In this document: positions 2,729 to 27,214 of the stretch, piece by piece
Layout: the number at the start of each line of letters is the position of its first letter
Position numbering within the stretch: the stretch's first letter is position 1
The notes under the pieces: generated by a model
Database searches by the model: none
What the model saw: the letters and a program-made list of their open reading frames with translations, nothing else
Told to the model about the DNA's origin: nothing
Made by a program: the position numbers and the translations under genes
Assembly: GCF_003003235.1 (NCBI RefSeq)
Contig: NZ_PVUE01000001.1
Location: forward strand, 186,001 to 250,000
Origin: Antricoccus suffuscus
GTDB taxonomy: Bacteria; Actinomycetota; Actinomycetes; Mycobacteriales; Antricoccaceae
Direction of reading: 5' to 3'
DNA length: 64,000 nt

Positions 2729-3601
2729 TTAAAGCCAGCCGCGCTCGACCGCGCGAATTCCAGCCTGAAAGCGGCTCGACGCGCCCAGCCGCACCAGTAT
2801 CTGAGACACATGCCGGCGAAATGTCCGCTCACTCACCGCTAATCTCTTGGCGGCGGCCTCGTCTGTCAGGCCGAGGCTCATCGCCCGGATTACCGCGAGC
2901 TCGAGGTCGGACGGCCGTCCGCTGGGAGCGACCGGGTCGATCTCACTTAGGGCTCGACCGCTTCGGAAGATTCCGTTAGCCAGGTGCCGAAGCCCGTTTA
3001 CCAGCGCCGGTTCGCCGGTAATCAGGGCGCCTTCGCTTCGGGAGTCACGCACGATCGGCACCACTGCACGTACGCCGTCCGAGACGATGAGGCGATACGG
3101 GACGGCGTCCGCGAAATGGAATTGAGCGCCGTGGCCCTGCATGGTGTCGGTGTATTCGCGGACGCGTTGTATGTGCGAGAACTCGACCGGGTAGACGATC
3201 CGTAGCCGCACACCACGGTCGAGGAGCTCGCGATCGTTGCGCATCGCGGCGGTGAAGGCCTCCTCGGATGGGGCCTCGCCGGCGTGCAGGCTGAGTAGCT
3301 CGCGGCGGGTCCCGCGAGCGATCTCGACGAGCCGAGTTTGTAGGGTCGCGAGGTTGACGACCTTCTGAACCAGCAGTTTCCGATCGGGCTGGTCGTCGAC
3401 GAGCATTCGATCGAGCGCCACCCGACCGGCGAGGACCCGTTCCTCTTGCGGCGTGGCATCGGCGTGGTTACGACTGAGCTCGCGTACGGCGGCATGACCA
3501 TCAGAGTCTGCTGCACGGTATTGGGCACTCTCAAGTGCCCAGCGATGTAGGTCAGTGACCGGCTTTTTGCCCGCCGGACCGTCCGGTGGGTGAGCTGGCA
3601 T
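2729..3601 (-). CDS. LuxR-type HTH transcriptional regulator
   Basis: This is a predicted 290-residue DNA-binding regulator. The last 59 residues are a LuxR/GerE-type helix-turn-helix, including LGLTDEAAAKRLAVSERTF and RRHVSQILVRLG. The middle part (about 60-220) resembles the effector region of TrmB-like LuxR regulators, with a phrase such as RNDRELLDRGVRLRIVYP. No receiver domain or ATPase is present. The frame stays open to 4102, but that stretch overlaps the divergent FAD gene and looks non-coding, so I use the ATG at 3601. The terminator at 2656 follows it. Its target and ligand are unknown. It is transcribed divergently from the SigK-type lipid locus, which it could influence. Confidence 0.75.
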   Translation of the reverse strand: MPAHPPDGPAGKKPVTDLHRWALESAQYRAADSDGHAAVRELSRNHADATPQEERVLAGRVALDRMLVDDQPDRKLLVQKVVNLATLQTRLVEIARGTRRELLSLHAGEAPSEEAFTAAMRNDRELLDRGVRLRIVYPVEFSHIQRVREYTDTMQGHGAQFHFADAVPYRLIVSDGVRAVVPIVRDSRSEGALITGEPALVNGLRHLANGIFRSGRALSEIDPVAPSGRPSDLELAVIRAMSLGLTDEAAAKRLAVSERTFRRHVSQILVRLGASSRFQAGIRAVERGWL

Positions 3602-3808
3602 CGGACACCACCATTCGGCACTCGCGGAAATTGCCTCAGCCTTCCTCCACCATATCGTGGCATCGCGCAGGTTTGCGCGCCGCGCATTGTGTTTTTGGCC
3701 AGGTAGATCGCGGTGTGGGCCGCCGGCGCCTACTGGAAGCGTCGGCAGTCCCCGTTTTATTGTTCGGTGCCACTGTGCCGTGGCAATCGACAAGTCGTCG
3801 TGGTGTTC

Positions 3809-3835
3809 CAATCCGCACCGATGTTGGCTCCGAAC
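3809..3835 (+). promoter_or_regulatory. Possible SigK-type promoter of the FAD oxidoreductase operon
   Basis: The 3602-3913 gap has no convincing gene. It contains CAATCC (3809-3814) and, 15 bases on, CCGAAC (3830-3835), about 80 bases before the ATG at 3914. Mycobacterial SigK promoters carry CCATCC-like and CCGAAT-like boxes with slightly wider spacing, and this locus includes a sigK homologue. The match is suggestive only. Confidence 0.3.
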
Positions 3836-3913: not shown

Positions 3914-5176
3914 ATGACTCGGCGGCGTATTGCGGTCATAGGTAGCGGTGTTGCGGGTCTGACCGCGGCGTACGTGCTGCAACGCGAGGCCGATGTCACG
4001 CTGTATGAGGCCGACTCTCGGCTTGGTGGACACGCGCATACCCACGAAGTGCTGGATGACTCCGGCACGTCGATCCGCGTCGATACCGGCTTTATCGTGC
4101 ACAACGAACGTACCTACCCGCAGTTGATCCGGCTATTCTCCGAGTTGGACATTGCCACCGCCGACTCGGACATGAGCATGTCCGTGCAGTGCGGCGGATG
4201 TGGATTGCAGTACGCCGGGGCGCGCGGTCTGTCGGGACTCTTCCCCTCCAGTAGAAACGTCGTAAACCCGCGTTACCTTTACCTACTCACCGAGGTCGTT
4301 CGTTTCCAGAGGGCGGCGCGTGCGTTGCTTGCAAGCGACGACGGCGCGAATCGGACGGTCGGTGAGTTCGTCCAGGCGGGCCACTTCACTGACTACTTCC
4401 GGTCGCATTTCCTCACTCCGCTGATCGCGGCGGTGTGGTCGACCCCGCCGCAGCTGACCGAGCTGTATCCGGTCCGCTACTTGTTTGAATTCCTGCAGAA
4501 CCACGGCATGTTGTCGATCAGCGGTTCGCCGCAATGGCGCACGGTCGTCGGTGGATCCGCACGGTACGTCGAAAAGGCCGTCAAATCGCTCAGCGCCGTA
4601 CTCACCTCGACCCCCGTGCGCAGCGTCGCGCGGGCGGGTGCGGGAGTGACCGTCCGTGACGACTCCGATCAGCTCGCTCAGTACGACGCGGCGGTAATTG
4701 CCAGCCACCCCGCACAAGCGTTGAGCATGCTGGCCGCGCCGACAGATGCGCAGTCGCACGCGCTCGGCGCAATCGGCTACTCGAAAAACCCGACGATCCT
4801 GCACACGGATACGGCGGTGCTACCGGCCGCGCGCAAGGCGCAGGCGTCCTGGAACTACTTCCTGCCCTCGTGTACCGCGACGGCCGATTCGGTGCACGTC
4901 AGCTATGACATGAACCGCCTTCAGAATCTGCCGACCGATACCCGTTACCTCGTCACCCTCAACGATGACGGTGCCGTACGCCCGGATGCGATTGTCGAGC
5001 GGATGCAGTACGAGCACCCGATCATCACGCCGGAGGCGGTCGCCGCGCAGGGCGAGCTCGCCGGCCTCAATGATGGGGTGCTCGCGTTCGCTGGCGCCTA
5101 TCACGGATGGGGTTTCCACGAAGACGGTTGCCGCTCAGGAGTGGATGCCGCCAGAAGTCTGGGGGTGCACTGGTGA
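3914..5176 (+). CDS. FAD-dependent amine-oxidase-type oxidoreductase (Rv0449c-like)
   Basis: This 420-residue flavoprotein has an N-terminal Rossmann FAD motif, IAVIGSGVAGLTAAY (residues 6-20). The EADSRLGGHAHT segment that follows is typical of NAD(P)-binding amine-oxidase-like proteins. A GAGGAGGAATT ribosome site precedes the ATG. The stop overlaps the GTG of the DUF1365 gene. In mycobacteria the homologue Rv0449c heads the same order of genes (FAD protein, DUF1365, UfaA1), and related trios modify membrane fatty acids after oxidative or light stress. A desaturase or oxidase step on an acyl chain is inferred; the substrate is not shown by sequence. Confidence 0.85.
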   Translation: MTRRRIAVIGSGVAGLTAAYVLQREADVTLYEADSRLGGHAHTHEVLDDSGTSIRVDTGFIVHNERTYPQLIRLFSELDIATADSDMSMSVQCGGCGLQYAGARGLSGLFPSSRNVVNPRYLYLLTEVVRFQRAARALLASDDGANRTVGEFVQAGHFTDYFRSHFLTPLIAAVWSTPPQLTELYPVRYLFEFLQNHGMLSISGSPQWRTVVGGSARYVEKAVKSLSAVLTSTPVRSVARAGAGVTVRDDSDQLAQYDAAVIASHPAQALSMLAAPTDAQSHALGAIGYSKNPTILHTDTAVLPAARKAQASWNYFLPSCTATADSVHVSYDMNRLQNLPTDTRYLVTLNDDGAVRPDAIVERMQYEHPIITPEAVAAQGELAGLNDGVLAFAGAYHGWGFHEDGCRSGVDAARSLGVHW

Positions 5177-5946
5177 GTATTGCCCCCGACGAGACTCGGA
5201 CCGAGCAGGCCATTAAGACGCCCGCTATCGCGACGCCGGCCCGCTACGACGTACAGATCACGCACCGACGCCGTGAACCGCTGGACTACCGGTTTACCAA
5301 TCGCTCGCAGACGTGGCTGGTCGATCTCGACGCGCTCCCGCAGCTTCCGCGGTTCGCGCGAGGACTGTGCCGGTTCGACGGCCGTGACCACCTCAGTGGC
5401 GCGCGCCGTACGATCCGCGCCAACCTCGACGACTGGCTCGCCGACGCCGGACAATTGCGGCCCGCTCGGGTTTTGATGCTCGCCCAGCCACGAGTGCTCG
5501 GCTACGTCTTTAACCCCTTGACGGTGTTCTACTGTTATGACCGTCAAGGGCGAGCGATGTACGTCGTCGCCGAGGTTGCCAACACGTACGGAGGGCGTCA
5601 GTGCTACCTCCTCCACCCCGACGAAGCCGGCCGCGCGCAGGTCGACAAGGACTTCTATGTCTCGCCGTTCAACCCGATCGACGGCGGTTACGAAATGCTG
5701 GTCCCGCAGCCGGGTCCACGGCTCACGGTGACGGTCACGCTGCGACGGCCAGGCGCTCTCCCTTTCACCGCGGCCATGACCGGCGCTCGTGCGCCATCGG
5801 CGCCCCTCTGGTCCGCGCTCACCAGACCGCTGCTATCCAGAGCGACGATGTTCCAAATCAAGCGCCACGGAATAACCCTCTATATACGTGGTTTGCGTCC
5901 TACAACACGCACGAAGGAGACAGGCAATGTCACTCACACTCGATAG
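5173..5946 (+). CDS. DUF1365 family protein (Rv0448c-like)
   Basis: This 257-residue member of DUF1365 has family signatures including ITHRRREPLDYRFTNRS near the start, RVLGYVFNPLTVFYCYD in the middle, and KDFYVSPFN. DUF1365 genes almost always stand between an FAD amine-oxidase-like gene and a cyclopropane-synthase-like methyltransferase, as here, and a role in acyl-chain modification is inferred. I chose the GTG at 5173, which overlaps the upstream TGA (GTGA) and implies translational coupling. An in-frame start at 5107 would lie inside the upstream gene. The 3' end overlaps the next gene by 20 bases. Confidence 0.88.
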   Translation: MSIAPDETRTEQAIKTPAIATPARYDVQITHRRREPLDYRFTNRSQTWLVDLDALPQLPRFARGLCRFDGRDHLSGARRTIRANLDDWLADAGQLRPARVLMLAQPRVLGYVFNPLTVFYCYDRQGRAMYVVAEVANTYGGRQCYLLHPDEAGRAQVDKDFYVSPFNPIDGGYEMLVPQPGPRLTVTVTLRRPGALPFTAAMTGARAPSAPLWSALTRPLLSRATMFQIKRHGITLYIRGLRPTTRTKETGNVTHTR

Positions 5947-7183
5947 TAAAGAGGTTATCGACCGTCGGCTGTGGCCAGATGTTGCGGTGACGCCTGATCG
6001 ACCGATCCGGGCGCTGGTAGCGCGCCGGCTGGTCCGCCGCGCACTTAAGACTCTGCCGCTGCGCGTGACGACCGCTGACGGCCGACAGTTCGGAGCCGGT
6101 GGGCCGAATGACCCTTCGCTGCACCTGGTGCGCCCCGACGCGTTCTACCAACGGCTTGGCGCTGGCGGGCTGATCGGCTTTGGCGAGTCATTCATGGCAG
6201 GTGACTGGGTCGCCGATGACGTGGTCGGCGTACTGACCGTCCTCGCTCGGCGATTGGAGAAGCTGGTGCCGCCTCTGCTGCAACGCTTCCGCGGTCTAGC
6301 CGTGCACGCGCGGCCAGGCGCTGATCGAAATACCGTCGACGGCGCGCGGGAGAATATTCATCGACACTATGACTTGTCCAATGAGTTGTTTTCGCTTTTC
6401 CTCGATCCCACGATGACGTACTCCTCGGCGCTCTTTGATGCCAATCGCCCGTACGACGAGCAGGACCTGGCCGAGGCGCAACAGCGCAAGGCCGATCGAC
6501 TCCTCGACATTGCCGGCGTGCGCGCGGGTAGCCGGGTGGTCGAGATCGGAACGGGCTGGGGCGAGCTCGCGATCCGGGCGGCGGCCCGTGGCGCCCAGGT
6601 AACGACGACGACGATCTCGCACGAGCAGGCACAGTTGGCTCGTCAGCGAATCGCCGATGCGGGGTATGCCGACCGCGTCGACGTACGCGAGCAGGACTAT
6701 CGCGACGTCACCGGCGAGTATGACGCGCTGATCAGCGTCGAGATGATCGAGGCGGTCGGTAGCGATTATTGGCCGGAGTACTTCCAGACCATCGAGCGGC
6801 TGTTGGCTCCGGGCGGCCGGGCGGCGCTGCAGGCGATCACGATGCCGCACGACCGGATGCTGGCCAGTGCCCACACCTATACCTGGATTCTGAAGTACAT
6901 CTTCCCGGGCGGCCAGATCCCGTCTGTGACGGCAGTGACCGAACACTCCCAGCGCGCGGGCTTGCGGGTCTCGACCCGATTCGCGTTCGGCGCCGACTAC
7001 GCCGAGACGCTGCGGCGGTGGCGCGCGCGGTTCGAGGAATGTGCCGACGAGGTCGATCGACTTGGGTTCGATTCGATATTTCGTAAAATGTGGTCGCTCT
7101 ACTTGGCGTACTCCGAGGCCGGGTTCCGGTCCGGTTATCTGGATGTGGTCGGGTTCGAGTTGACGAAACCAGGCTCGCGGTGA
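5927..7183 (+). CDS. ufaA1: SAM-dependent fatty-acid methyltransferase, UfaA1-like
   Basis: This 418-residue protein is of the cyclopropane-fatty-acid-synthase family, which adds a methylene or methyl group from S-adenosylmethionine across the double bond of a membrane acyl chain. The SAM site VVEIGTGWGELAIRAA, the ISVEMIEAVG loop and ENIHRHYDLSNELF closely resemble mycobacterial UfaA1 (Rv0447c), as does the C-terminal YLAYSEAGFRSGYLDV. ATG 5927 has GAAGGAGA upstream and lies 20 bases inside the DUF1365 gene. The gene sits just before sigK-rskA, as in mycobacteria. Assignment to UfaA1 rather than classical Cfa rests on sequence resemblance plus gene order. Confidence 0.88.
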   Translation: MSLTLDSKEVIDRRLWPDVAVTPDRPIRALVARRLVRRALKTLPLRVTTADGRQFGAGGPNDPSLHLVRPDAFYQRLGAGGLIGFGESFMAGDWVADDVVGVLTVLARRLEKLVPPLLQRFRGLAVHARPGADRNTVDGARENIHRHYDLSNELFSLFLDPTMTYSSALFDANRPYDEQDLAEAQQRKADRLLDIAGVRAGSRVVEIGTGWGELAIRAAARGAQVTTTTISHEQAQLARQRIADAGYADRVDVREQDYRDVTGEYDALISVEMIEAVGSDYWPEYFQTIERLLAPGGRAALQAITMPHDRMLASAHTYTWILKYIFPGGQIPSVTAVTEHSQRAGLRVSTRFAFGADYAETLRRWRARFEECADEVDRLGFDSIFRKMWSLYLAYSEAGFRSGYLDVVGFELTKPGSR

Positions 7184-7247
7184 GCGCTGATATCCAAAAT
7201 CGACCGTGCGTCCGCGACCGCCGCGCCGATCTGGCACAGTTAACGAG

Positions 7248-7835
7248 GTGCGATTCTTGCGATCGGTCCCTGCCGATGAGGCGCCCCTCGATGAGGAGAC
7301 TCTCGAGCGGTTGCTTGCCGCCTCGGCGACGGGGGACGAGCAGGCATTCGCGCGCCTTTACGATCGGACGTCCGCTCGGCTTTATGGGCTGGTGCTGCGC
7401 GTCATACGTGACAGCGCCCAAGCCGCTGAAGTTACCCAAGACATATATGTACAGGTCTGGCGTGACTCCGCACGATTCGATCCTGCCGCAGGCAACGCGA
7501 TGGCGTGGCTACTGATGATCGCGCACCGGCGGGCGGTCGATCGTGTGCGTGCCTCCGAAGCCTCGCGGCAGCGCGACGATCGGTACGCCACGCGACAGAC
7601 TGAACGGTCCTACGATCAGGTGAGTGAACAGGCGCATGCCAACATGGAGGCGCAGCATGTGCGCAAGGCGCTCGACGGCCTCACCGATAACCAGCGCGAC
7701 GCCTTGCAGTTGGCGTACTTCGACGGTTATACGCATCGCGAAGTAGCTGCGATGCTGGAAATACCGCTTGGTACGGCGAAGACCAGGATCCGCGACGGAC
7801 TCATTCGATTACGAGATGCGATGGGGGAGCGATGA
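7248..7835 (+). CDS. sigK: ECF RNA polymerase sigma factor, SigK-like
   Basis: This extracytoplasmic-function sigma factor has about 195 residues. Region 2 includes YDRTSARLYGLVLRVIRD and MAWLLMIAHRRAVDRVR. Region 4 includes LTDNQRDALQLAYFDGYT and the helix-turn-helix LGTAKTRIRDGLIRL. It strongly resembles mycobacterial SigK and is followed by its anti-sigma gene with an ATGA overlap. The start is uncertain: I use GTG 7248; GTG 7206 is also in frame, and neither has a clear ribosome site. It is expected to drive the upstream FAD-DUF1365-UfaA1 operon and itself, by analogy with the SigK regulon. Confidence 0.88.
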   Translation: MRFLRSVPADEAPLDEETLERLLAASATGDEQAFARLYDRTSARLYGLVLRVIRDSAQAAEVTQDIYVQVWRDSARFDPAAGNAMAWLLMIAHRRAVDRVRASEASRQRDDRYATRQTERSYDQVSEQAHANMEAQHVRKALDGLTDNQRDALQLAYFDGYTHREVAAMLEIPLGTAKTRIRDGLIRLRDAMGER

Positions 7836-8581
7836 CGATGCCTGATCTCCACGATTTCACCGGCGCGTACGTCGTCGATGCTCTCGACGAGGACGAGCGC
7901 GCCTCCTTCGAGGCGCACCTGGAGAACTGTCCAGACTGCGTAGCGGAAGTACGCAGCCTGCGCGACGCGCTTGGCGAGTTGAGCGACAGCACGGCCGTGG
8001 CGCCGCCGCCGGAGCTTCGCGCGAGCGTGTTGGGCGCGATTACTCACGAGGCACAACCGCAGAGCGTCACGCAAGAGCCGTCATTACCGGACAATGTCAC
8101 GCCCCTTCGCGCTCGCCCTTCGAGGCGCTGGCTGTGGCCGGCGACGGCCGCCGCGTGCGCGGTGATCGCGATCGGTGGGACCGGCTGGGGGTTCGCGCAG
8201 CATCGTGATGCGACCAAGAATGCCGACCGTATCTCGGCCATCACCACGGTTCTAGGAGGGTCCGACACCGTCACCGTGAGTGGCCCGATCGGTTCCAGCG
8301 GCAACGCCAGCATCGTCTACTCCAAGGCGGAGCAGAAACTGTTGCTAATCGGAAACGACATCCCGGCACCCCCGGACCACAAGACCTACCAACTCTGGAT
8401 GATCAGTCCTCAAGGAGCCGCTACCTCCGCGGGGACCTTTGCGCCCGACTCCGGCGGTCACGTGCTGCTCCAGGCTAGCGGCGACGTCGCGGGGACTGCG
8501 CAGATGGGCATTTCGGTTGAACCGGCCGGCGGTTCAGCACAGCCGACCAAGGGTGCGATCCTCGCTGTCATGCCTCTCTAG
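7832..8581 (+). CDS. rskA: Membrane anti-sigma-K factor, RskA-like
   Basis: This 249-residue single-pass membrane protein holds SigK inactive until a signal triggers its proteolysis. The N-terminal cytoplasmic anti-sigma domain carries the zinc-site pattern HLENCPDC (H-x3-C-x2-C). One transmembrane helix lies near residues 97-116 (WPATAAACAVIAIGGTGWGF). The outside part is an RskA/anti-sigma-K C-terminal domain with phrases such as HKTYQLWMIS and AQMGISVEPAGGS. Its ATG overlaps the sigK stop (ATGA), so the pair is translationally coupled. The intact HxxxCxxC suggests possible redox or zinc sensitivity, as reported for mycobacterial RskA homologues. Confidence 0.9.
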   Translation: MTMPDLHDFTGAYVVDALDEDERASFEAHLENCPDCVAEVRSLRDALGELSDSTAVAPPPELRASVLGAITHEAQPQSVTQEPSLPDNVTPLRARPSRRWLWPATAAACAVIAIGGTGWGFAQHRDATKNADRISAITTVLGGSDTVTVSGPIGSSGNASIVYSKAEQKLLLIGNDIPAPPDHKTYQLWMISPQGAATSAGTFAPDSGGHVLLQASGDVAGTAQMGISVEPAGGSAQPTKGAILAVMPL

Positions 8582-8958: not shown

Positions 8959-10479
8959 TTAGCTTGGCGGATTCGGACGTTGAGAGGTTGGGGGAGTCTG
9001 CGGCGATGCCGAACTCGCCTCGGCGGCGAGGGCGATGTTGCGCAGCATCGCGCCGAATACGATGCCGTGGAATGGGTATACCGACCACCAATACAGATGC
9101 CCAAGAAGTCCACGTGGATGGAATAGCGCACGCTGGCGCAGCGAAACCGGGCCGTTGCCGCTCTGCTCGATCACGAACTCGAGCCACGCAAGCCCCGGCA
9201 GACGCATCTCCGCGCGCAGCCGAAGGACCCGCTCATTATCGGCTTCCTCAACCCGCCAGAAATCCAGCGCGTCACCGATCACCAGCGTGCTCGCGTCCCG
9301 CCGACCCCGTCGCAGCCCCGGTCCGCCGATGACCCGGTCCGCGAATCCACGCAGACGCCAGGCCAGTGGCCAGGAGTACCAGCCGGTGTCGCCGCCGATC
9401 GCGTTGATCACTTGCCACAGTTTCGTCCGGTCCGCGTCGACCTCACGCGCCCGCTCATCGGCATACAGTGATCCGCCCGCCCAGTCGGGGTCGCTCGGTA
9501 ACGGGTCACTCGGGGCGCCGGCCGTCGATGCCGAGGACCACCTGCTCACCACGGCGCGGTCCTGAATCTTGGTCAGTGCCAGGCTGATCGCTCGGTCGAA
9601 CGGCGTCAATCCGGCGTCCGGATCCGGGACGTAGTCGGCGATGTCGTGTTCCTTGCACACGACCTCATTGATGAGACTCGCGACGAGCGGCCTCGCGATT
9701 GACTTCGGCACCGGTGTCACGAGCCCGACCCAGTGGCTCGAGAGCGCTGGGCTGAGCACGGGGACCTTGATCACCCGGCGTGGTGGGAGACCCGCCACGG
9801 ACGCGTACCTGGCCATCATCTGGCGGTAGGTCATCACGTCGGGGCCGCCGATGTCGAAACCACGACTGACGCCGGCTGGTATTTCGGCGGCGCCGACGAG
9901 ATAGTGCAGCACATCGCGAATGGCAATAGGCTGAATCCGGGTGTCCACCCACCGCGGGGTCACCATCACCGGCAGCCGCTCGGTCAGGTAGCGCAGCATC
10001 TCGAATGACGCCGACCCCGACCCGATGATCACCGCTGCGCGCAGGACGGTTGTCGGTACGCCGCACGTCAGAAAGATCTCCTCGACTTCCTGACGTGACT
10101 GAAGATGCATGCTCAGCTCTTGGTGCTCTGGGTACAGCCCGCTGAGATAAACCAGATGACCAACGCCGACGTCACGCGCGGCCGCAGCAAATGACCGTGC
10201 GGTCTGGCGGTCTTTCATCGCGAACTTCGTGCCCGTGCCGATCGAATGGATCAAGTAGTAGGCGACGTCTACGCCCGTGAGCGCTTCGGTGACCGCGGCC
10301 TGGTCGGTGGCATCGGCCTCGACGATCTCGACGAGGTCGATCCATGGGCGACTCTCCAGCCGCCGTATGTCGCGCGCGAGAATCCGGACCCGATAGCCAG
10401 CTTCGAGCAGTTCGGGCACTAGCCGTCCTCCGACGTACCCCGTCGCGCCCGTGACGACGACGAGCTTGCCGGCGCTCAC
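8959..10479 (-). CDS. SDR-type NAD(P)-binding protein with DUF2867 domain
   Basis: This is a 506-residue two-domain protein. The N-terminal extended/atypical short-chain-dehydrogenase domain has VVVTGATGYVGGRLVPELL (about residues 7-25) and HLVYLSGLYPE. The C-terminal DUF2867 domain (about 345-485) contains DTGWYSWPLAWRLRG and a conserved tail, LYWWSVYPFHGIVF. Proteins of this architecture often lie near photolyase and carotenoid or stress-lipid genes; here photolyase is divergent on the right and sigK-rskA lies on the left. The substrate is unknown; DUF2867 resembles a lipid-binding START-like fold, so a membrane-lipid or isoprenoid role is possible. GTG start, overlapping a short upstream frame. 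Confidence 0.82.
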   Translation of the reverse strand: MSAGKLVVVTGATGYVGGRLVPELLEAGYRVRILARDIRRLESRPWIDLVEIVEADATDQAAVTEALTGVDVAYYLIHSIGTGTKFAMKDRQTARSFAAAARDVGVGHLVYLSGLYPEHQELSMHLQSRQEVEEIFLTCGVPTTVLRAAVIIGSGSASFEMLRYLTERLPVMVTPRWVDTRIQPIAIRDVLHYLVGAAEIPAGVSRGFDIGGPDVMTYRQMMARYASVAGLPPRRVIKVPVLSPALSSHWVGLVTPVPKSIARPLVASLINEVVCKEHDIADYVPDPDAGLTPFDRAISLALTKIQDRAVVSRWSSASTAGAPSDPLPSDPDWAGGSLYADERAREVDADRTKLWQVINAIGGDTGWYSWPLAWRLRGFADRVIGGPGLRRGRRDASTLVIGDALDFWRVEEADNERVLRLRAEMRLPGLAWLEFVIEQSGNGPVSLRQRALFHPRGLLGHLYWWSVYPFHGIVFGAMLRNIALAAEASSASPQTPPTSQRPNPPS

Positions 10480-10547
10480 CGGCCGCCTTGATTCTTCTGG
10501 GTGACCGCGGCGAATGTGTTGATGAAACGGCGCGAGAACCAGCTCAT
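10476..10547 (-). CDS. Possible 23-residue leader peptide
   Basis: A short frame, MSWFSRRFINTFAAVTQKNQ followed by GGR, starts at ATG 10547. Its TGA overlaps the GTG of the SDR-DUF2867 gene (GTGA). AAAGAG lies about 8 bases upstream of the ATG. The coupling geometry is like other real overlaps in this window, but the length is close to chance. I have no homologue to support it. Confidence 0.22.
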   Translation of the reverse strand: MSWFSRRFINTFAAVTQKNQGGR

Positions 10548-10688
10548 GATGAAGCTCTTTTCGTTGGACGGCGCCGGTGACGTCGTCGCCGCAGACGGCT
10601 GGCAGGAACTCTATGCGTCAACCGCCGTGCGCGCAGCCCTCCTGCTCCCACGGACGCAGGTTTAGAGCACCTTTGGCAGACTGAATCC

Positions 10689-12041
10689 ATGAGTACCTCG
10701 GTGCTGTGGTTTCGGCGCGATCTCCGGCTGGGCGATCATCCGGCGCTGATGAGAGCTGCCAACGAGGGACCGGTCGTCGCCTTGTTCGTGCTCGACCCGG
10801 CACTGCGCGCTACATCGGGAAACGCGCGGCTCGCGTTCCTGCTCGCCTCTCTTCGATCGCTCGATGCGGACCTGCGCGCACACGGCGGGTCGCTGACCGT
10901 TCGTGTCGGCAAACCCGATTCCGTCGTACCGGAGATGGTCCGCGAGTCGGGCGCGCGCTCGGTGCACATCAGCGCTGATTTCGCGCCCTACGGCGCCGAG
11001 CGGGATGCGCGAGTAGCGGAAACCCTGGGCACTGTCCCGCTCGTGCGCACCGGTTCGCCGTACGCTGTCGCTCCCGGCAGGGTCACTAAGGAGGACGGGA
11101 ATCCATACAAGGTCTTCTCAGCGTTTTACCGGGCGTGGCGCGCGCACGGGTGGCGCGGCCCCGCCGCATCCGATCCCTCAGCCGTCGACTGGGTAGCCGC
11201 GGACGGGGACGGCGTACCCGAGACGCCGCTGGCGCAGATCCCACTTCCGGAGGCGGGTGAGCAGGCCGCTCACCGAGTTTGGCAGAAGTTCCTCGGAAGT
11301 CACCTGGCCCATTACCCCGACGTACGCGACCGCCCGGATCTCGACCACACCTCGAGGCTTTCGCCTTACCTGAAGTTCGGTGCGATTCATCCGCGGACGC
11401 TGCTCGCGGATCTCACGCCAGATGACGAGACGTTCGTCAAAGAGTTAGCGTGGCGTGAGTTCTACGCCGCCGTCCTGCATTTCTGGCCGTCCAGTGCCCA
11501 CGACTATTTCCAGCCACGGATGGCCACCATGGCCTACGAGACGGGCCCGGACGCCGATGAGATGTTCGAGGCATGGGCGAGCGGAAACACCGGCTACCCG
11601 ATCGTCGATGCCGGAATGCGCCAGCTGCTCGGGGAGGGCTGGATGCACAACCGAGTACGGATGATCACCGCGTCGTTTCTCGTGAAGGACTTGCACCTTG
11701 AATGGACACGCGGTGCCCGGCATTTCATGCACCAGCTCATCGATGGCGACCTCGCGAGCAACCAGCACGGTTGGCAATGGGTCGCCGGGACCGGCACCGA
11801 CGCCGCGCCGTACTTCCGCATCTTCAACCCCGTCACTCAAGGGAAGAAGTTCGATCCCGCGGGCGATTACATCCGTCGTTGGGTCCCGGAGCTGTCGGCG
11901 CTGGAGGGTCGCGATATCCACGAGCCGTGGCGCCGCGCGGCGGGTGCGCCGAGCGGTTACCCGCCGCCGATCGTCGAGCATGCGCATGAACGTCTCGAAG
12001 CCCTCGCCCGCTACAAATCGGTTACTTCCAGTCCGAGGTAG
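10689..12041 (+). CDS. phr: Deoxyribodipyrimidine photolyase (class I)
   Basis: This 450-residue flavoenzyme splits cyclobutane pyrimidine dimers in DNA using blue light. The N-terminal antenna-binding alpha/beta domain starts VLWFRRDLRLGDHPAL. The FAD-binding helical domain (about 200-450) carries family motifs including GYPIVDAGMRQL, WMHNRVRMITASFLVKDL, DLASNQHGWQWVAGTG and FNPVTQGKKFDP. These Trp-, Asn- and Asp-rich motifs are typical of CPD photolyases rather than animal-type cryptochromes. It is divergent from the SDR-DUF2867 gene. Photolyase near SigK/UfaA-type genes fits a light or oxidative stress neighbourhood. Confidence 0.93.
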   Translation: MSTSVLWFRRDLRLGDHPALMRAANEGPVVALFVLDPALRATSGNARLAFLLASLRSLDADLRAHGGSLTVRVGKPDSVVPEMVRESGARSVHISADFAPYGAERDARVAETLGTVPLVRTGSPYAVAPGRVTKEDGNPYKVFSAFYRAWRAHGWRGPAASDPSAVDWVAADGDGVPETPLAQIPLPEAGEQAAHRVWQKFLGSHLAHYPDVRDRPDLDHTSRLSPYLKFGAIHPRTLLADLTPDDETFVKELAWREFYAAVLHFWPSSAHDYFQPRMATMAYETGPDADEMFEAWASGNTGYPIVDAGMRQLLGEGWMHNRVRMITASFLVKDLHLEWTRGARHFMHQLIDGDLASNQHGWQWVAGTGTDAAPYFRIFNPVTQGKKFDPAGDYIRRWVPELSALEGRDIHEPWRRAAGAPSGYPPPIVEHAHERLEALARYKSVTSSPR

Positions 12042-19961: not shown

Positions 19962-20756
19962 TCAGTTCTGTGAGAAGCGGCGACGTCCGGCGAACGCGAC
20001 ACCGCCGGCTGCGGCGAGTAGCCCACCGCCGAGGCCGAACAGGGCCTCGTTTTCGATACCTGCGGTGCTGCCGCCGCCCGTGTCTGCGGCCCCACTGGGT
20101 GTGGTGCCCATCTGGCTGCTAGCCAACGAGCCGCACAGTGCCGGTGAGGTTGCTGCCAACGGCAACGACGGCACCAGGTCGCTTGGCGCGTCTTGGGCGG
20201 CCTTGCTCAGTTTCGTCGGGTCGAGGCCGTGTACGACGATGACGGCGGTACCGGCTTTGATCGATGCGACGCTTTTCGCGTCGAGAGTGATGGTGCGTGA
20301 GTATTTGTATCCCGAGCCACTGGGCGCGATTGTCACGTCGGTTCCGGCAGCTGGGCTGGTGTCACCAGAGACGGACAGGGTCGTACCGATGCCACCGTAT
20401 GCTGGTCCGCCTTCGGTGGTGCTGATGACCCCGTCGCCGTTGGTGTCGGCGGCGGCGGTGGGGCATTGGCCTTTGCCGCCGATGTGGATGTGCTGTACGT
20501 GTGGGTATGGCTTGCCCATGAATGTTTCGGCTAGGCCGCTGACGTTCTCAGTGATGGTGGCTTGGTCGCCGTTGAGCTGCAGCATTAGGGTGCCGGAGGC
20601 GCCGGAGTTGTTGACCTGCTGCAGGTCGGCTTGGTAGGACGCGCCTGCGTCTGCAGAGGCGACACCACTCATGGACAGGCTCATTGCGCCGATCGCGACC
20701 GCGCCTAGTGCGGCCGCCGATCCTCGCACGAATTTACTCTTCGTCTTCTTCTTCAT
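19962..20756 (-). CDS. CHRD-like secreted protein with C-terminal membrane anchor
   Basis: This 264-residue exported protein has a signal peptide of about 36 residues (ends SGVASADA). A CHRD-like beta domain contains PHVQHIHIGGKGQCP. DTNGDGVISTTE matches an EF-hand-type calcium loop (D-x-N-x-D-G-x-I-S-x2-E). The C-terminus has SGAADTGGGSTAG, a hydrophobic helix and RRRF, so it looks sortase-sorted although no LPXTG is present. The sortase gene starts 9 bases downstream. A decayed partial copy of this gene's end and upstream region lies at 23.56-23.82 kb. Function unknown; surface display is inferred. Confidence 0.8.
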   Translation of the reverse strand: MKKKTKSKFVRGSAAALGAVAIGAMSLSMSGVASADAGASYQADLQQVNNSGASGTLMLQLNGDQATITENVSGLAETFMGKPYPHVQHIHIGGKGQCPTAAADTNGDGVISTTEGGPAYGGIGTTLSVSGDTSPAAGTDVTIAPSGSGYKYSRTITLDAKSVASIKAGTAVIVVHGLDPTKLSKAAQDAPSDLVPSLPLAATSPALCGSLASSQMGTTPSGAADTGGGSTAGIENEALFGLGGGLLAAAGGVAFAGRRRFSQN

Positions 20757-21086
20757 CGCGGTTCCTCCGGTTCAGCCGATCTAGTCGGCGCGTGGATTGT
20801 TCGTATGCCGGCTATTCGGAGCTACCCTGCCCATCGGATTGGCCGCGCATCGAAAAACTTCGTGCCCGCGACAGTTCGCGCCGGATGCGGCGTTCATGAT
20901 GACTCGTCCCGTCGGTCACGGTTCTTGAACACGGGCGATCTTTAATCCGTCGCGGCGCCGAGGTGACTCGACCGGGGACTTCTTCTTGCCGTCGTGAATC
21001 CGCGGGCTCGTAGGGCAAGCCGTTGTGCCAGCGGTGTCGAACCACGACTAAGACGCTCATCGTGGGCGACGACAGGAGGAACAGAC
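20757..21086. promoter_or_regulatory. Divergent promoter region of CHRD-sortase operon and cupredoxin gene
   Basis: This 330-base gap has no gene. On the leftward side GGAGGAACC precedes the CHRD ATG; on the rightward side AGGAGG precedes the cupredoxin ATG. The stretch 20771-20880 recurs in diverged form at 23701-23820, including GGCGCGTGGATTGTT and CGTATGCCG. The parts kept in both copies may mark promoter or operator sequence. I cannot assign -35/-10 boxes with confidence. Confidence 0.4.
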
Positions 21087-22671: not shown

Positions 22672-23505
22672 TCAGCCGCCGACGTTAGGTGCGACCATCT
22701 TCGCGCTGAGTTCCCACAACTGCCGGGCTAGCTTGTCGTCATAGGCCTGCGTGTTAGCTCTGGACACCTTGCGCTTGTAGTAATACTCCCCTGGGGTCCA
22801 GTCGACTCCCGGGGACGCGGTAGCAAGCCACTCAAGCGTGTCCGCGCCCTTCTCGGGCGAGGTGAGACTTCTCTTCAGCATCGTCCGGTAGATGAATCGT
22901 AGATAACTTGAGGAGCCGGCCGAGAAGTTCGTGGCGACGTACCCAGGATGGAACGCCGCGCTAGCAATGCCAGCTCGCCGATACCGGCGATCGAGCTCTT
23001 TCGTGAACAGAATATTCGCCAGTTTGGCGTCGCCGTAGGCCTTATTGGCTGAATACTTAGAGCGCGCATCCAAGTCGTTGATATCGAGGTTGCCGAAAAA
23101 CCTGTTGGCGACACTGGATGTGTTGATAATGCGGGCCTTGGAATCAATAAGCCGATCGACGAGCAAGGTGGTCAGAAGGAACGGGGCGAGGTGATTAACC
23201 TGAAACGTCCTTTCGTGCCCGTCGTCCGTTTCCTCCCGTTTGCCCATGATTCCGCCGGCGTTATTGGCGAGCACGTCGATTCGGGGATACCGCTCGCGCA
23301 ATTGGGCTGCGAGCACGCGCACCTGGTCGAGGTGCGCAAAGTCAGCAATGAAGTGGTCCGCGCCGAGCGCCGTCGCAATCGCGGTCGTCTTCTGTTCTGA
23401 CCGACCTACGAGCACAACCCTTTCACCGACGGCGCTGAAATGACGAGCGGCGGCCGCTCCGATTCCGTCGCTCGCGCCGGTGATAACTATCGTCCGTGCA
23501 GGCAT
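22672..23505 (-). CDS. Short-chain dehydrogenase/reductase (retinol-dehydrogenase-like)
   Basis: This 277-residue classical-type SDR uses NAD(P). The cofactor motif TIVITGASDGIGAAAARHF is at the N-terminus, NNAG appears in DVLANNAGGIMGKREE, the catalytic Ser in INTSSVANRFFG, and the YxxxK pair in KAYGDAKLANILF. The C-terminal part FHPGYVATNFSAGSS is typical of retinol-dehydrogenase/WWOX-like SDRs. ATG 23505 has AGAGGAAAC upstream; the frame is open to 23538. The substrate is unknown. The stretch upstream of it (to 23.9 kb) is the decayed duplicate described below. Confidence 0.87.
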   Translation of the reverse strand: MPARTIVITGASDGIGAAAARHFSAVGERVVLVGRSEQKTTAIATALGADHFIADFAHLDQVRVLAAQLRERYPRIDVLANNAGGIMGKREETDDGHERTFQVNHLAPFLLTTLLVDRLIDSKARIINTSSVANRFFGNLDINDLDARSKYSANKAYGDAKLANILFTKELDRRYRRAGIASAAFHPGYVATNFSAGSSSYLRFIYRTMLKRSLTSPEKGADTLEWLATASPGVDWTPGEYYYKRKVSRANTQAYDDKLARQLWELSAKMVAPNVGG

Positions 23506-23564
23506 GTTTCCTCTTTCGTCGGAGAGTGCGCCTTTCACCTCGGCTACAGGCAGGGATCGCTACC

Positions 23565-23820
23565 TCAACTCTCTTTGGCTATCCGCCTCCCGCCGGCGGA
23601 GGCCAGGCTGGCGAACGCTACACCGTCGGTTGCGATGAGCGGTCCACCGCGGTCGCCGAACAGGGCCTCGTTTCCGATGCCTCCGTAGGGGGGTCCACTG
23701 TCAGCCGGCCTAGCCGGCGCGTGGATTGTTTCGTATGCCGACTATTCGAAGTCGCGACCGCTAACGGATTGGCGCCGATCGAAACGGGCGTTGATCGTGA
23801 CAATTTTGCGTCCAGCCGCG
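23565..23820 (-). pseudogene. Decayed partial duplicate of the CHRD-like gene end and its upstream region
   Basis: The 420-base gap 23506-23925 contains sequence related to 19962-20880. On the minus strand 23690-23565 reads GIGNEALFGDRGGPLIATDG, then GVAFASLASAGGRR and a stop; the live gene at the same place reads GIENEALFGLGGGLLAAAGG, then VAFAGRRR. Directly next to it, 23701-23820 matches the live gene's upstream region (shared GGCGCGTGGATTGTT and CGTATGCCG). The whole middle of the gene is absent, so this is an internally deleted, non-coding copy. Confidence 0.75.
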
Positions 23821-23925
23821 CTCACAGACACGCATACGGATCCAGGCAGAGCAATCCGGATGGGCCGCGACTTCGAACCATGAACTACACAACCGGATCA
23901 TGTGGATCGCTAATGGGAGCTTGAT

Positions 23926-24489
23926 ATGAAACGACTGAAGTTGCTTGTTGCCCTCATGGCAGCGGCCGGTATTTTGCTCGGCGGTTGCGCTACCTCCGGT
24001 GCCGCTACCACAGGCGCCGGATCGACAGCGTCATCCGTCACCGCGGGTAAAGGCGGTCCGACGGACTCTGCGCTGATGGTCTGTGGGGAGGAGCCGGCTA
24101 GCAGTATCACCCAAATTCTTGGCCTCGATAAGTCGCCACACAAAGTGCATACCTGGGCCAACAAGCTTTATACCTGCACCTATCATCTGCCGATGGGCGA
24201 GTTCGTGCTCTCGGTCAAAGAATCCGCAGACGACGCGGCCGCGATTGCCTATTTCAACGACCTGCAGACCAAACTTGCGCCGACGACACCGATTGAAGGA
24301 CTGGCGAATCTAGGATTCCCGGCCTATAACACGACCGCCGGCGCGACAGTATTTGTCAAGGACAATATGACGTTGCAGGTGGATGCGAGCAAACTACCAG
24401 CGACGCTAGGCCCGCACAACATATCGCGCAATGACCTCTCCTATCAGGTCGCGACCGTCATACTGGCATGCTGGAAAGAGCATCAGTGA
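23926..24489 (+). CDS. Hypothetical lipoprotein
   Basis: This 187-residue predicted lipoprotein has signal MKRLKLLVALMAAAGILLGG and a lipid-modified Cys. A low-complexity Thr/Ser/Gly linker follows, then a compact domain with three more cysteines: LMVCGEEPASSITQILGL, KLYTCTYHLPMGEF and ILACWKEHQ at the end. The pattern suggests disulfide-stabilised secreted folds seen in several actinobacterial lipoproteins of unknown function. A GGGAGC ribosome site precedes the ATG. No family is recognised. Confidence 0.72.
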   Translation: MKRLKLLVALMAAAGILLGGCATSGAATTGAGSTASSVTAGKGGPTDSALMVCGEEPASSITQILGLDKSPHKVHTWANKLYTCTYHLPMGEFVLSVKESADDAAAIAYFNDLQTKLAPTTPIEGLANLGFPAYNTTAGATVFVKDNMTLQVDASKLPATLGPHNISRNDLSYQVATVILACWKEHQ

Positions 24490-25043: not shown

Positions 25044-25159
25044 ACCTACCGTTACGGAGCTACTCTCTCTTCTCACCACCAATCCGTGCCCGCCGCGACT
25101 TCGAACTTCTGATGGGATAGCGCGCCGATGTGGCGCGACTTGCGAGAGACGGAGCAACG

Positions 25160-26428
25160 ATGACCAGTACCGCCGAACGTGTGGTCGCCTTGGTGCGACC
25201 GGTAATTGGCAGCGACCTTCCGGTCCGCATCCGCGCCTGGGACGGCAGTGAGGCGGGGCCACTGAACGCTCCCGTCGTTCATTTGACGTCCCGGCGCGCG
25301 CTCCGGCGGATCCTGTGGCACCCTGACGAGCTCGGTCTGGCGCAGGCCTATGTCACCGGGGAGCTTGACGCGCCAGGCGGGGCGGACGACGTCGTTGATG
25401 CGTTACGCCGAGCGTGGCAGACCACGCCTACCAGAGCGCATCGACCGGACGCCCGTCACCTGCTCACCGCGGTGGCGACCGGTGCGCGGTTGGGCGCACT
25501 GGGCCTTCGGCCCAAACCTCCTGTGTCGCAAGCTCGCCTCGACGGTGACGTGCACACCACGACGCGCGACAAGGCGGCGATCTCGCACCACTACGACCTG
25601 TCCAACGATTTTTACGCGCTTCTCCTGGACGAGTCGATGGCGTACTCCTGTGCTTACTACTCGCGCCCCGATATGAGCCTGGCGGAAGCTCAACGCGCGA
25701 AGCTCGACCTGATCTGCCGCAAACTTGATCTTCGCCCAGGGATGCGATTACTCGATGTCGGTTGTGGCTGGGGTTCGCTGAGCCTGCACGCGGCCGAACA
25801 TTACGGCGCGGTCGTGCTCGGTGTGACGATATCGCGGCAACAGCAGGAGTTCGTCGCCAAACGGATCGCCGATCGAGGGCTTGACGGCCAAGTCGAGGTG
25901 CGCTTGCAGGATTACCGTGAGGTACGAGAGGCGCCGTTCGATGCGGTGAGCTCGATTGAGATGGGCGAGCATGTCGGAGAGGATAACTACGGCACGTACG
26001 CCGGGGTGCTGTTCGAGCAACTCAAGCCGTCCGGTCGTATGCTCCTGCAGCAGATGTCGCGGCACCGCGACGCCGCGCCTGGCGGCGGCGCCTTCATCGA
26101 GAATTTCATCGCACCGGACATGCACATGCGGCCACTGCCGGACACGTTGCGGTTCTTACAAGACGCTGGTTTCGAGATCCGCGAGGTCCAGGCGATGCGC
26201 GAACACTACGCGCGCACGGTCGCTGACTGGCACGACACCTTTGAGAAGCACTACCGCGAGGCCGTGTCCATGGTGGGAGAGGAAATCGCTCGGGTGTGGC
26301 GGCTCTATCTGATCGGTGGTGGGCTCACATTCGAGCAAGGGAGGATGGGCGTCGATCAGATACTCGCCGTGCGTCCGGCGTACGGCGCCGCTTCGGTCTG
26401 CCAGGTACCCGATTGGAATCAGACGTAA
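25160..26428 (+). CDS. Second cyclopropane-fatty-acid-synthase-family methyltransferase
   Basis: This 422-residue SAM-dependent lipid methyltransferase has AISHHYDLSNDFYALLLDES, the SAM motif LLDVGCGWGSLSLHAA, the SIEMGEHVGED loop and FIENFIAPDMHMRPLPDT, all typical of Cfa/MmaA-like enzymes. It is clearly different from the UfaA1-like protein at 5.9 kb (GCGWG instead of GTGWG; EMGEHVG instead of EMIEAVG). It ends immediately before the DUF1295 gene (TAA then ATG, no gap), so the pair is an operon. A step in cyclopropanation or mid-chain methylation of membrane acyl groups is the family role. ATG 25160 with GGAG is used. Confidence 0.87.
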   Translation: MTSTAERVVALVRPVIGSDLPVRIRAWDGSEAGPLNAPVVHLTSRRALRRILWHPDELGLAQAYVTGELDAPGGADDVVDALRRAWQTTPTRAHRPDARHLLTAVATGARLGALGLRPKPPVSQARLDGDVHTTTRDKAAISHHYDLSNDFYALLLDESMAYSCAYYSRPDMSLAEAQRAKLDLICRKLDLRPGMRLLDVGCGWGSLSLHAAEHYGAVVLGVTISRQQQEFVAKRIADRGLDGQVEVRLQDYREVREAPFDAVSSIEMGEHVGEDNYGTYAGVLFEQLKPSGRMLLQQMSRHRDAAPGGGAFIENFIAPDMHMRPLPDTLRFLQDAGFEIREVQAMREHYARTVADWHDTFEKHYREAVSMVGEEIARVWRLYLIGGGLTFEQGRMGVDQILAVRPAYGAASVCQVPDWNQT

Positions 26429-27214
26429 ATGAGCGACTTCCCGACAGACGCCTTCCTTCGTGCCGTTCCATGGGCGATAGGAGCCGTGCTCGTCGTACTG
26501 CTCGGCACTTATGTGGCGTCCCGGTGGCTTGGCAAGCACTCCGTGGTCGACACCGCGTGGGGTCTGCTGTTCTGTGCGGTCGCGATCGTGTCGTTCATAA
26601 GTTCGCAGGGCACGGGCGATGACGGACGTCGGTGGCTGCTGTTCGTCATGACAATGGTCTGGGGGTTAAGGCTCGCGTGGCACATCGGATCACGGAGTCG
26701 AGGCAAGGGCGAGGACCCACGCTATAAGGCGATGCTGGAGGGGCATGGCACGGCGTACGTCGTCGTTGTTGTCTACCTACTGCAGGGATTCCTGGCATTG
26801 TTGGTGTCCATGCCCGTGCTGGTGGGAAGTTTCGTGCCGGTCCCACTATCGCCGATCGTTATCGTCGGTGTCGCGTTCTGGATTGTCGGCCTTATCTTTG
26901 AGGCGGTCGGCGACTGGCAGCTTGAGTGCTATAAGTCCGACCCCGATCGCGATCAGGTCCTCGACACGGGCTTGTGGCGCTATACCCGTCATCCCAACTA
27001 TTTCGGCGACGCATGTGTCTGGCTCGGGATCTTCCTCGTCGTCGCACCGAGTTGGCCGGGCGCGTTGACTGTGCTCTCGCCCGCGGTCATGATCTACCTG
27101 CTCGCCTTCGGTTCGGGAAAGCGTGTCCTGGAAAGATCGATGGCGCGCCGCCCCGGATACGTCGACTACATGCGACGCACCTCTGGTTTCGTGCCGCTTC
27201 CACCTCGCCGTTAG
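26429..27214 (+). CDS. DUF1295 membrane protein (steroid-5-alpha-reductase fold, Rv0446c-like)
   Basis: This 261-residue membrane protein has about six helices and the DUF1295/isoprenylcysteine-methyltransferase-like C-terminal signature: YKSDPDRDQVLDTGLWRYTR, HPNYFGDACVWLG and RPGYVDYMRRTSGFVP. It begins right after the stop of the second methyltransferase gene. In mycobacteria the homologue Rv0446c sits between UfaA1 and SigK; here it has been separated from that locus by about 19 kb. A reductase role on an unsaturated acyl intermediate is inferred from the fold. The stop overlaps the convergent acyltransferase stop. Confidence 0.85.
   Translation: MSDFPTDAFLRAVPWAIGAVLVVLLGTYVASRWLGKHSVVDTAWGLLFCAVAIVSFISSQGTGDDGRRWLLFVMTMVWGLRLAWHIGSRSRGKGEDPRYKAMLEGHGTAYVVVVVYLLQGFLALLVSMPVLVGSFVPVPLSPIVIVGVAFWIVGLIFEAVGDWQLECYKSDPDRDQVLDTGLWRYTRHPNYFGDACVWLGIFLVVAPSWPGALTVLSPAVMIYLLAFGSGKRVLERSMARRPGYVDYMRRTSGFVPLPPRR

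Follow-up and report, generated by a model that had tools for sequence, protein, structure and literature searches.

The 64,000-nucleotide stretch analyzed here (the window) covers positions 186,001 to 250,000 of contig NZ_PVUE01000001.1 from the actinobacterium Antricoccus suffuscus and carries, near its start, genes predicted to modify fatty acyl chains, together with those for sigma factor SigK and its anti-sigma factor RskA. Open reading frame (ORF) calls and domain searches placed five genes on the plus strand, encoding a flavin adenine dinucleotide (FAD)-dependent oxidase, a DUF1365 protein, the methyltransferase CFA1, SigK, and RskA (Table 1), in the very order that a sequence-only reading of this DNA had given. 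The best start of the DUF1365 gene, a GTG, overlaps the oxidase stop codon by 4 bp, the ATG of cfa1 falls within the DUF1365 gene, and the ATG of rskA overlaps the sigK stop codon, again by 4 bp. The sigma factor exceeds the curated cut-off for SigK, which no other gene product of this genome passes, and its gene overlaps that for RskA, as expected of a SigK-RskA (ECF18/19) system. The sequence-only reading had also held that DUF1295 is missing between the methyltransferase and sigK and is found behind a second methyltransferase gene instead. Indeed, no DUF1295 gene lies between cfa1 and sigK, and the sole copy in the 4.68-Mb genome is located directly behind cfa2.

For comparison, loci around DUF1365 were sampled (80 named actinobacterial loci, plasmid loci, and stretches from genomes of the same order); as they were picked by DUF1365 similarity, all counts given here describe this sample and not actinobacteria as a whole. 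Gene orders were cross-checked by single-sequence searches, the profile hidden Markov models being partly built on shadow reading frames. The commonest arrangement was UfaD-UfaO-CFA1-CFA2-DUF1295 (UfaD being the oxidase and UfaO the DUF1365 protein), often with SigK-RskA alongside. In the 96 loci that encoded both UfaD and UfaO and had sufficient flanking sequence, CFA1 was present in 76, CFA2 in 56, DUF1295 in 70, and SigK-RskA in 43. CFA2 was accompanied by DUF1295 in 54 of its 56 loci (and lacked it twice), DUF1295 occurred without CFA2 in 16 of the 96, and neither was found nearby in 24. The absence of DUF1295 at the site is, thus, real but of a common kind. Because CFA2 and DUF1295 travel together, the 25.1-kb pair is best explained as the CFA2-DUF1295 half of the common operon of five genes, which would have become detached while keeping SigK control; DUF1295 does belong to a separate transcription unit, as the sequence-only reading proposed, but it sits there in its customary company.

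The form without CFA2, in the order UfaD-UfaO-CFA-DUF1295-SigK-RskA, was found in three mycobacterium-like genomes (L136, L144, and L146), the SigK of L146 being ∼80% identical, almost end to end, to that of Mycobacterium tuberculosis (PDB 4NQW). In other mycobacterium-like genomes (L135, L137, L138, L140–L143, and L145), the locus comprised only DUF1365 (UfaO)-SigK-RskA, without UfaD or CFA1, and in most of them was preceded by a CCCATCC promoter. An orthologue of CFA1 (46–67%) was present in all 13 genomes checked, often elsewhere and unlinked to ufaD-ufaO, which rules out that CFA2 replaces CFA1 in loci lacking the latter. Likewise, the 24 loci with neither DUF1295 nor CFA2 nearby rule out DUF1295 as an obligatory step.

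A blind paired-word search upstream of UfaD in 99 loci returned ATCC-N16-CGAA in 35 sequences, with any shuffled pair reaching at most 17. When a matrix derived from 29 sites of other species (the window being excluded) was applied, five sites in the window scored between 18.0 and 22.1 bits; the next best scored 11.8, and a 2-Mb Markov control contained none above 18. All five sites precede genes (Table 1), and the search for a SigK motif at 25.1 kb, suggested in the sequence-only reading, was strongly positive. A longer string, CGCGACTTCGAA, is common to the sites at 23772 (−), 23851 (+), and 25079 (+), as if they were local copies. Genome-wide, the CAATCC form of the motif matched 25 times compared with three for reversed-pattern controls, and the CCAATCC form 12 times compared with none; five of the 25 matches fall in the window (binomial p 2e-5). 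Two sites on contig C19, 1.7 kb apart, precede the genes for a molybdopterin oxidoreductase (MoOx) and an MPT83-like fasciclin lipoprotein (FAS1). As MPT83 is a classic SigK target (PMC7509140), the latter site ties the motif to SigK, and its presence before both the operon containing sigK and an MPT83-like gene is what would be expected of a SigK-RskA system. A SigK regulon that includes the 25.1-kb unit is, thus, well supported by sequence, SigK presumably binding at the predicted sites, and the promoter before the operon lends support to the earlier proposal that SigK controls a cluster for acyl-chain modification. For the photolyase and NmrA genes, a matrix scan of 10480–10689 yielded no SigK site above 9 bits, and neither gene is counted here among the targets of SigK.

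Table 1. Genes and predicted SigK-type promoters in the window.
Feature	Position	Strand	Evidence and remarks
UfaD-like FAD oxidoreductase	3914..5176	+	Pfam Amino_oxidase/NAD_binding_8; amine-oxidase type
UfaO-like DUF1365 protein	5173..5946	+	Pfam DUF1365, 191.8 bits; conserved residues
CFA1, UfaM/UfaA1-type S-adenosylmethionine-dependent fatty acyl methyltransferase	5927..7183	+	CMAS, 282 bits
SigK, extracytoplasmic function (ECF) sigma factor	7206..7835	+	NCBIfam PRK09646, 261 bits (cut-off 226); PDB 4NQW match
RskA, anti-sigma factor	7832..8581	+	RskA_C 87.4 bits, RskA_N, zf-HC2
CFA2, second CMAS-type methyltransferase	25130..26428	+	CMAS, 289 bits; FufM-like role proposed
DUF1295 membrane protein	26429..27214	+	Pfam, 215.5 bits
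Predicted promoter (CCAATCC-N16-CGAA), ufa-sigK-rskA operon	3808..3834	+	22.1 bits, best site in the window; 80 bp before UfaD start codon
Predicted promoter, CFA2-DUF1295	25079..25105	+	20.1 bits, perfect consensus
Predicted promoter (N17), secreted protein	20815..20842	−	20.2 bits, exact match
Predicted promoter (N17), short-chain dehydrogenase (SDR)	23745..23772	−	18.5 bits, exact match
Predicted promoter, lipoprotein	23851..23877	+	18.0 bits, 1 mismatch
Predicted secreted protein, candidate SigK target	19962..20756	−	No Pfam match; 58 bp downstream of SigK-type site
SDR, candidate SigK target	22672..23538	−	Pfam; site ~206 bp upstream
Putative lipoprotein, candidate SigK target	23926..24489	+	ORF; no Pfam match; 48 bp downstream of SigK-type site
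NmrA/SDR-DUF2867 protein	8959..10479	−	Pfam; near 8 of 96 ufa loci
DNA photolyase	10689..12041	+	Pfam; at ~10 kb or less from 11 of the 96 actinobacterial loci; 2.1 kb downstream of rskA in the window

In a sister genus (G001), ufaD-ufaO lies at 1.06 Mb, cfa2-DUF1295 at 1.79 Mb, and cfa1 at 2.07 Mb, with a strong motif site at each, and sigK-rskA follows the genes for MoOx and a fasciclin protein, each with its own site. UfaD-UfaO-MoOx-FAS1-SigK-RskA are encoded together in G003 and MoOx-FAS1-SigK-RskA in G004; in A. suffuscus, MoOx-FAS1 stands alone on C19 and SigK-RskA is part of the ufa operon. In Amycolatopsis, the motif is present on both of two divergent units. Gene position is fluid in this family, because SigK-RskA sits elsewhere in the sister genomes; from the four genomes (A. 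suffuscus, G001, G003, and G004), the alternatives as to which piece moved are indistinguishable. The picture is that of a regulon whose scattered genes are united by a shared promoter sequence.

In Rhodobacter sphaeroides, a methylated furan fatty acid is made from vaccenate chains by UfaM (CFA-like), UfaD (an FAD enzyme), and UfaO (DUF1365); in Rhodopseudomonas palustris, FufM adds a second methyl group (PMC7380195). Homologues of UfaM, UfaD, and UfaO co-occur in the A. suffuscus genome, aligning nearly end to end (32–42% identity) with proteobacterial proxies from the same type of locus, most of these loci also encoding sigma-E-ChrR: UfaD is 37–42% identical, over its full length, to UfaD-position enzymes (most of them encoded beside sigE-chrR), UfaO 32–34% to UfaO-position proteins, and CFA1 41% to the UfaM-position enzyme of Azospirillum. 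The gene group, thus, probably builds a furan fatty acid, that is, an oxygen-containing antioxidant membrane fatty acid, and the locus is read, with reasonable if not high confidence, as a SigK-RskA regulon with a furan-fatty-acid pathway. That DUF1295 performs the final step, as had been proposed, is not borne out, because the characterized alphaproteobacterial pathway needs UfaM, UfaD, and UfaO alone (PMC7380195). The AlphaFold model of DUF1295 (predicted local distance difference test score, pLDDT, 93.3) has the delta-14 sterol reductase 4quv as its best PDB match and also resembles ICMT, and the sequence weakly matches Steroid_dh in Pfam; a membrane protein with a sterol-reductase/ICMT-like fold is predicted with high confidence. 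As CFA2 nearly always has DUF1295 while DUF1295 does without CFA2, one may guess from these presence patterns that DUF1295 works either ahead of CFA2 or jointly with it. The model of UfaO is a β-barrel like those of fatty acid–binding or nitrobindin-type calycins, but its best Z score (7.7) is in the range expected without kinship, and an acyl-binding barrel is only hinted at.

In the mechanism proposed here, envelope stress, probably photo-oxidative or caused by lipid oxidation, would free SigK from membrane-bound RskA. SigK would then transcribe the units preceded by CCAATCC-N16/17-CGAA: ufaD-ufaO-cfa1-sigK-rskA (amounting to autoregulation), cfa2-DUF1295, the genes for the SDR, the lipoprotein, and the secreted protein, and, elsewhere in the genome, those for MoOx and the MPT83-like fasciclin lipoprotein. 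CFA1, acting like UfaM, would methylate mono-unsaturated phospholipid acyl chains, UfaD would desaturate the branched chain, and UfaO would insert O2, closing a furan ring that would scavenge oxidants. CFA2 and DUF1295 could form a later tailoring pair, perhaps for a second ring methylation (FufM-like) or for methylation plus reduction. A photo-oxidative signal for SigK-RskA is plausible by analogy, because the singlet-oxygen regulon of sigma-E/ChrR in Proteobacteria comprises the same types of genes. Furthermore, mpk83 and mpk70 (homologues of MPT83 and MPT70) are light-induced in Mycobacterium kansasii (PMC9861118), and RskA declines upon UV-B exposure in Nesterenkonia (PMC8965627). The SigK proteins of the window, G001, and G020 contain no cysteine, which means that oxidants, if sensed, must be sensed outside SigK; cysteine-less natural SigKs are known, the redox cysteines 133 and 183 being common but not strictly defining (PMC7509140).

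Several points weigh against this interpretation. Many of the other genome-wide motif matches are not obviously promoters, and with no detectable SigK site at the photolyase and NmrA genes, the case for light as the signal draws on their position and on other species. The Ufa identities refer to the proxies and not to the Ufa proteins of R. sphaeroides or R. palustris themselves, the furan product is read from the genes of A. suffuscus, and the FufM-like role of CFA2 follows a pattern, namely, that of a second methyltransferase with 32% identity to CFA1. Finally, UfaA1 of M. tuberculosis has been reported to yield 10-methyl stearate in vitro, although from crude extract, and the result is disputed (cited in PMC5660069). 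This last report would also fit an alternative, in which the product is a saturated fatty acid with a methyl branch in mid-chain (tuberculostearate-like), made when DUF1295, as a membrane reductase, reduces a methylene- or methyl-olefin chain formed by a CFA methyltransferase. This alternative comes nearest to the proposal that DUF1295 performs the last step and agrees with the likeness of the DUF1295 model to 4quv and ICMT, with the weak Steroid_dh match, and with the company that DUF1295 keeps with CFA2 (54 of 56 loci). However, it leaves UfaD and UfaO unexplained, neither CFA2 nor DUF1295 is encoded in 24 of 96 loci, and a pair like bfaA-bfaB, which is known for 10-methyl stearate (PMC5660069), is already present on contig C8 of this genome (FAD_binding_4 plus CMAS; L179, 3621–6349), and is likely to produce 10-methyl fatty acids. 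A methyl-branched product of the window genes is, thus, considered unlikely.

Somewhat less probable still is that the separation is incidental, cfa2-DUF1295 being an independently acquired paralogous unit and not a detached half. The depth of divergence between the two methyltransferases would fit such an origin: CFA1 (37 rows) and CFA2 (26 rows) fall on opposite sides of a branch with a Shimodaira–Hasegawa-like approximate likelihood ratio (SH-aLRT) of 98. The CFA1 clade contains the protein of the window together with those of mycobacterial-type loci (L136, L139, L144, and L146), as expected of orthologues in the position of UfaA1, and the separate CFA2 clade holds the second methyltransferase of the window. 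The mycobacterial-type DUF1295 belongs to the same actinobacterial family as that of the window, the two occupying separate regions of the tree. Grouping with the mycobacterial set, on which the sequence-only reading had staked its case, is, thus, upheld for CFA1 and DUF1295, but not for CFA2, which is not UfaA1-like. An independent origin would also agree with the presence of a separate DUF1295-CFA pair in rhizobial loci, which in the sigE-chrR loci L174 and L175 (Ensifer and Rhizobium plasmids) occurs besides DUF1365 and the FAD oxidase; the grouping of this CFA with CFA1 is not trusted (branch length 5.4). Speaking for detachment, the nearest relatives of both CFA proteins of the window come from a single genome, G020, which has one contiguous operon; moreover, the cfa2-DUF1295 unit keeps the same promoter, and a similar dispersal is seen in G001.

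That the CCAATCC sites are read by another ECF sigma factor, SigK-RskA being a mere neighbor, is very improbable: despite ∼34 ECF-like first-look candidates in the genome, and 8 of 31 motif-bearing ufa loci without SigK within the fetched stretch, SigK-RskA lies alongside the other 23, the motif matches the variant CCCATCC-N16-CGAAT of Corynebacteriales-type (mycobacterial-type) loci before UfaD/UfaO in SigK-containing operons, relatives carry CCAATCC-type sites ahead of MPT83-like genes, MoOx, and the gene for SigK itself, and exact sites number 12 in this genome (G000) and 11 in G001 versus 0–2 in genomes without a full-scoring SigK (G005, G031, G077, and G201), although they are also few in G006 and G021, which have SigK.

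A different ECF-like promoter, GAACC-N16/18-CGAA, precedes UfaD in 25 ufa loci among L013–L084, mostly from Pseudonocardiaceae and almost all without nearby SigK-RskA. It never co-occurs with CCAATCC, which suggests that these loci came under the control of another sigma factor. In the window, the gene for a LuxR-type (GerE) regulator at 2732–3700 (−) is oriented divergently to the ufa promoter; a homologue adjoins UfaD in L083. At 17–2269 (−) lies the gene for a large secreted protein with repeated carboxypeptidase-regulatory-like domains and a C-terminal sortase-like tail.

The stimuli of SigK-RskA, which controls the antigens MPT70 and MPT83, have been called obscure (PMC9861118), and the locus described here suggests a possible role for this little-understood mycobacterial system. 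Tentatively, and with more doubt than confidence, SigK-RskA might throughout actinobacteria, including the tubercle bacillus, be a photo-oxidative or lipid-oxidation system, ancestrally for furan fatty acids, convergent with sigma-E/ChrR and with MPT83/MPT70 as companions. Should the genes so frequently found with SigK-RskA produce furan fatty acids, its signal and purpose would become directly testable by gas chromatography–mass spectrometry, and a known chemistry would link SigK to the two scattered hints at light and UV from M. kansasii and Nesterenkonia. In the open literature, no paper was found that connects SigK or mycobacteria with furan fatty acids, subscription literature being outside the search. 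This kind of locus is known from mycobacteria; to our knowledge, the proposal that it represents a dispersed SigK regulon including a furan fatty acid pathway is new.

The mycobacterial sigK locus (Rv0449c-Rv0444c type) and the SigK-RskA regulon, for which Said-Salim 2006 and Veyrier 2008 are reportedly the sources (see also PMC7509140), share with the window the order FAD oxidoreductase, DUF1365, UfaA1-type methyltransferase, SigK, and RskA (as read from mycobacterium-like genomes), a promoter before the first gene, and an MPT83-like target. The window differs in that DUF1295 is not located between methyltransferase and SigK, and in that CFA2, which mycobacterial-type loci lack, lies with DUF1295 18 kb away behind a SigK site of its own. 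Also, SigK of M. tuberculosis is redox-sensitive, whereas that of the window lacks the two redox cysteines. With the 10-methyl stearate pathway of BfaA-BfaB/TmsA-TmsB (PMC5660069), the locus shares a CMAS-type methyltransferase and an FAD enzyme. The FAD enzyme of that pathway, however, is of the FAD_binding_4 and not of the amine-oxidase type, and DUF1365 is not involved; no FAD_binding_4 reductase is encoded next to the methyltransferase of the window locus, its place in this genome being the separate pair on C8. UfaM-UfaD-UfaO(-FufM) of Rhodobacter and Rhodopseudomonas (PMC7380195) have their counterparts in three homologues of ring-forming enzymes plus a second methyltransferase; here, the setting is actinobacterial, identity to the proteobacterial counterparts is 32–42%, DUF1295 is added, and SigK replaces sigma-E. 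The likeness to the sigma-E/ChrR singlet-oxygen regulon (PMC5507510, PMC5241685) extends to FAD oxidase, DUF1365, CFA, SDR (part of the core sigE-ChrR regulon; PMC5507510), a nearby photolyase, and lipoprotein/lipocalin. The anti-sigma factor, however, is the unrelated RskA and not ChrR (a BLAST comparison of the window RskA with Phyllobacterium ChrR gave no match), and the promoter reads CCAATCC...CGAA as opposed to TGATCC...CGTA. Nonetheless, the core target types of sigma-E/ChrR are all found in the window, and the units of all except photolyase are preceded by SigK sites.

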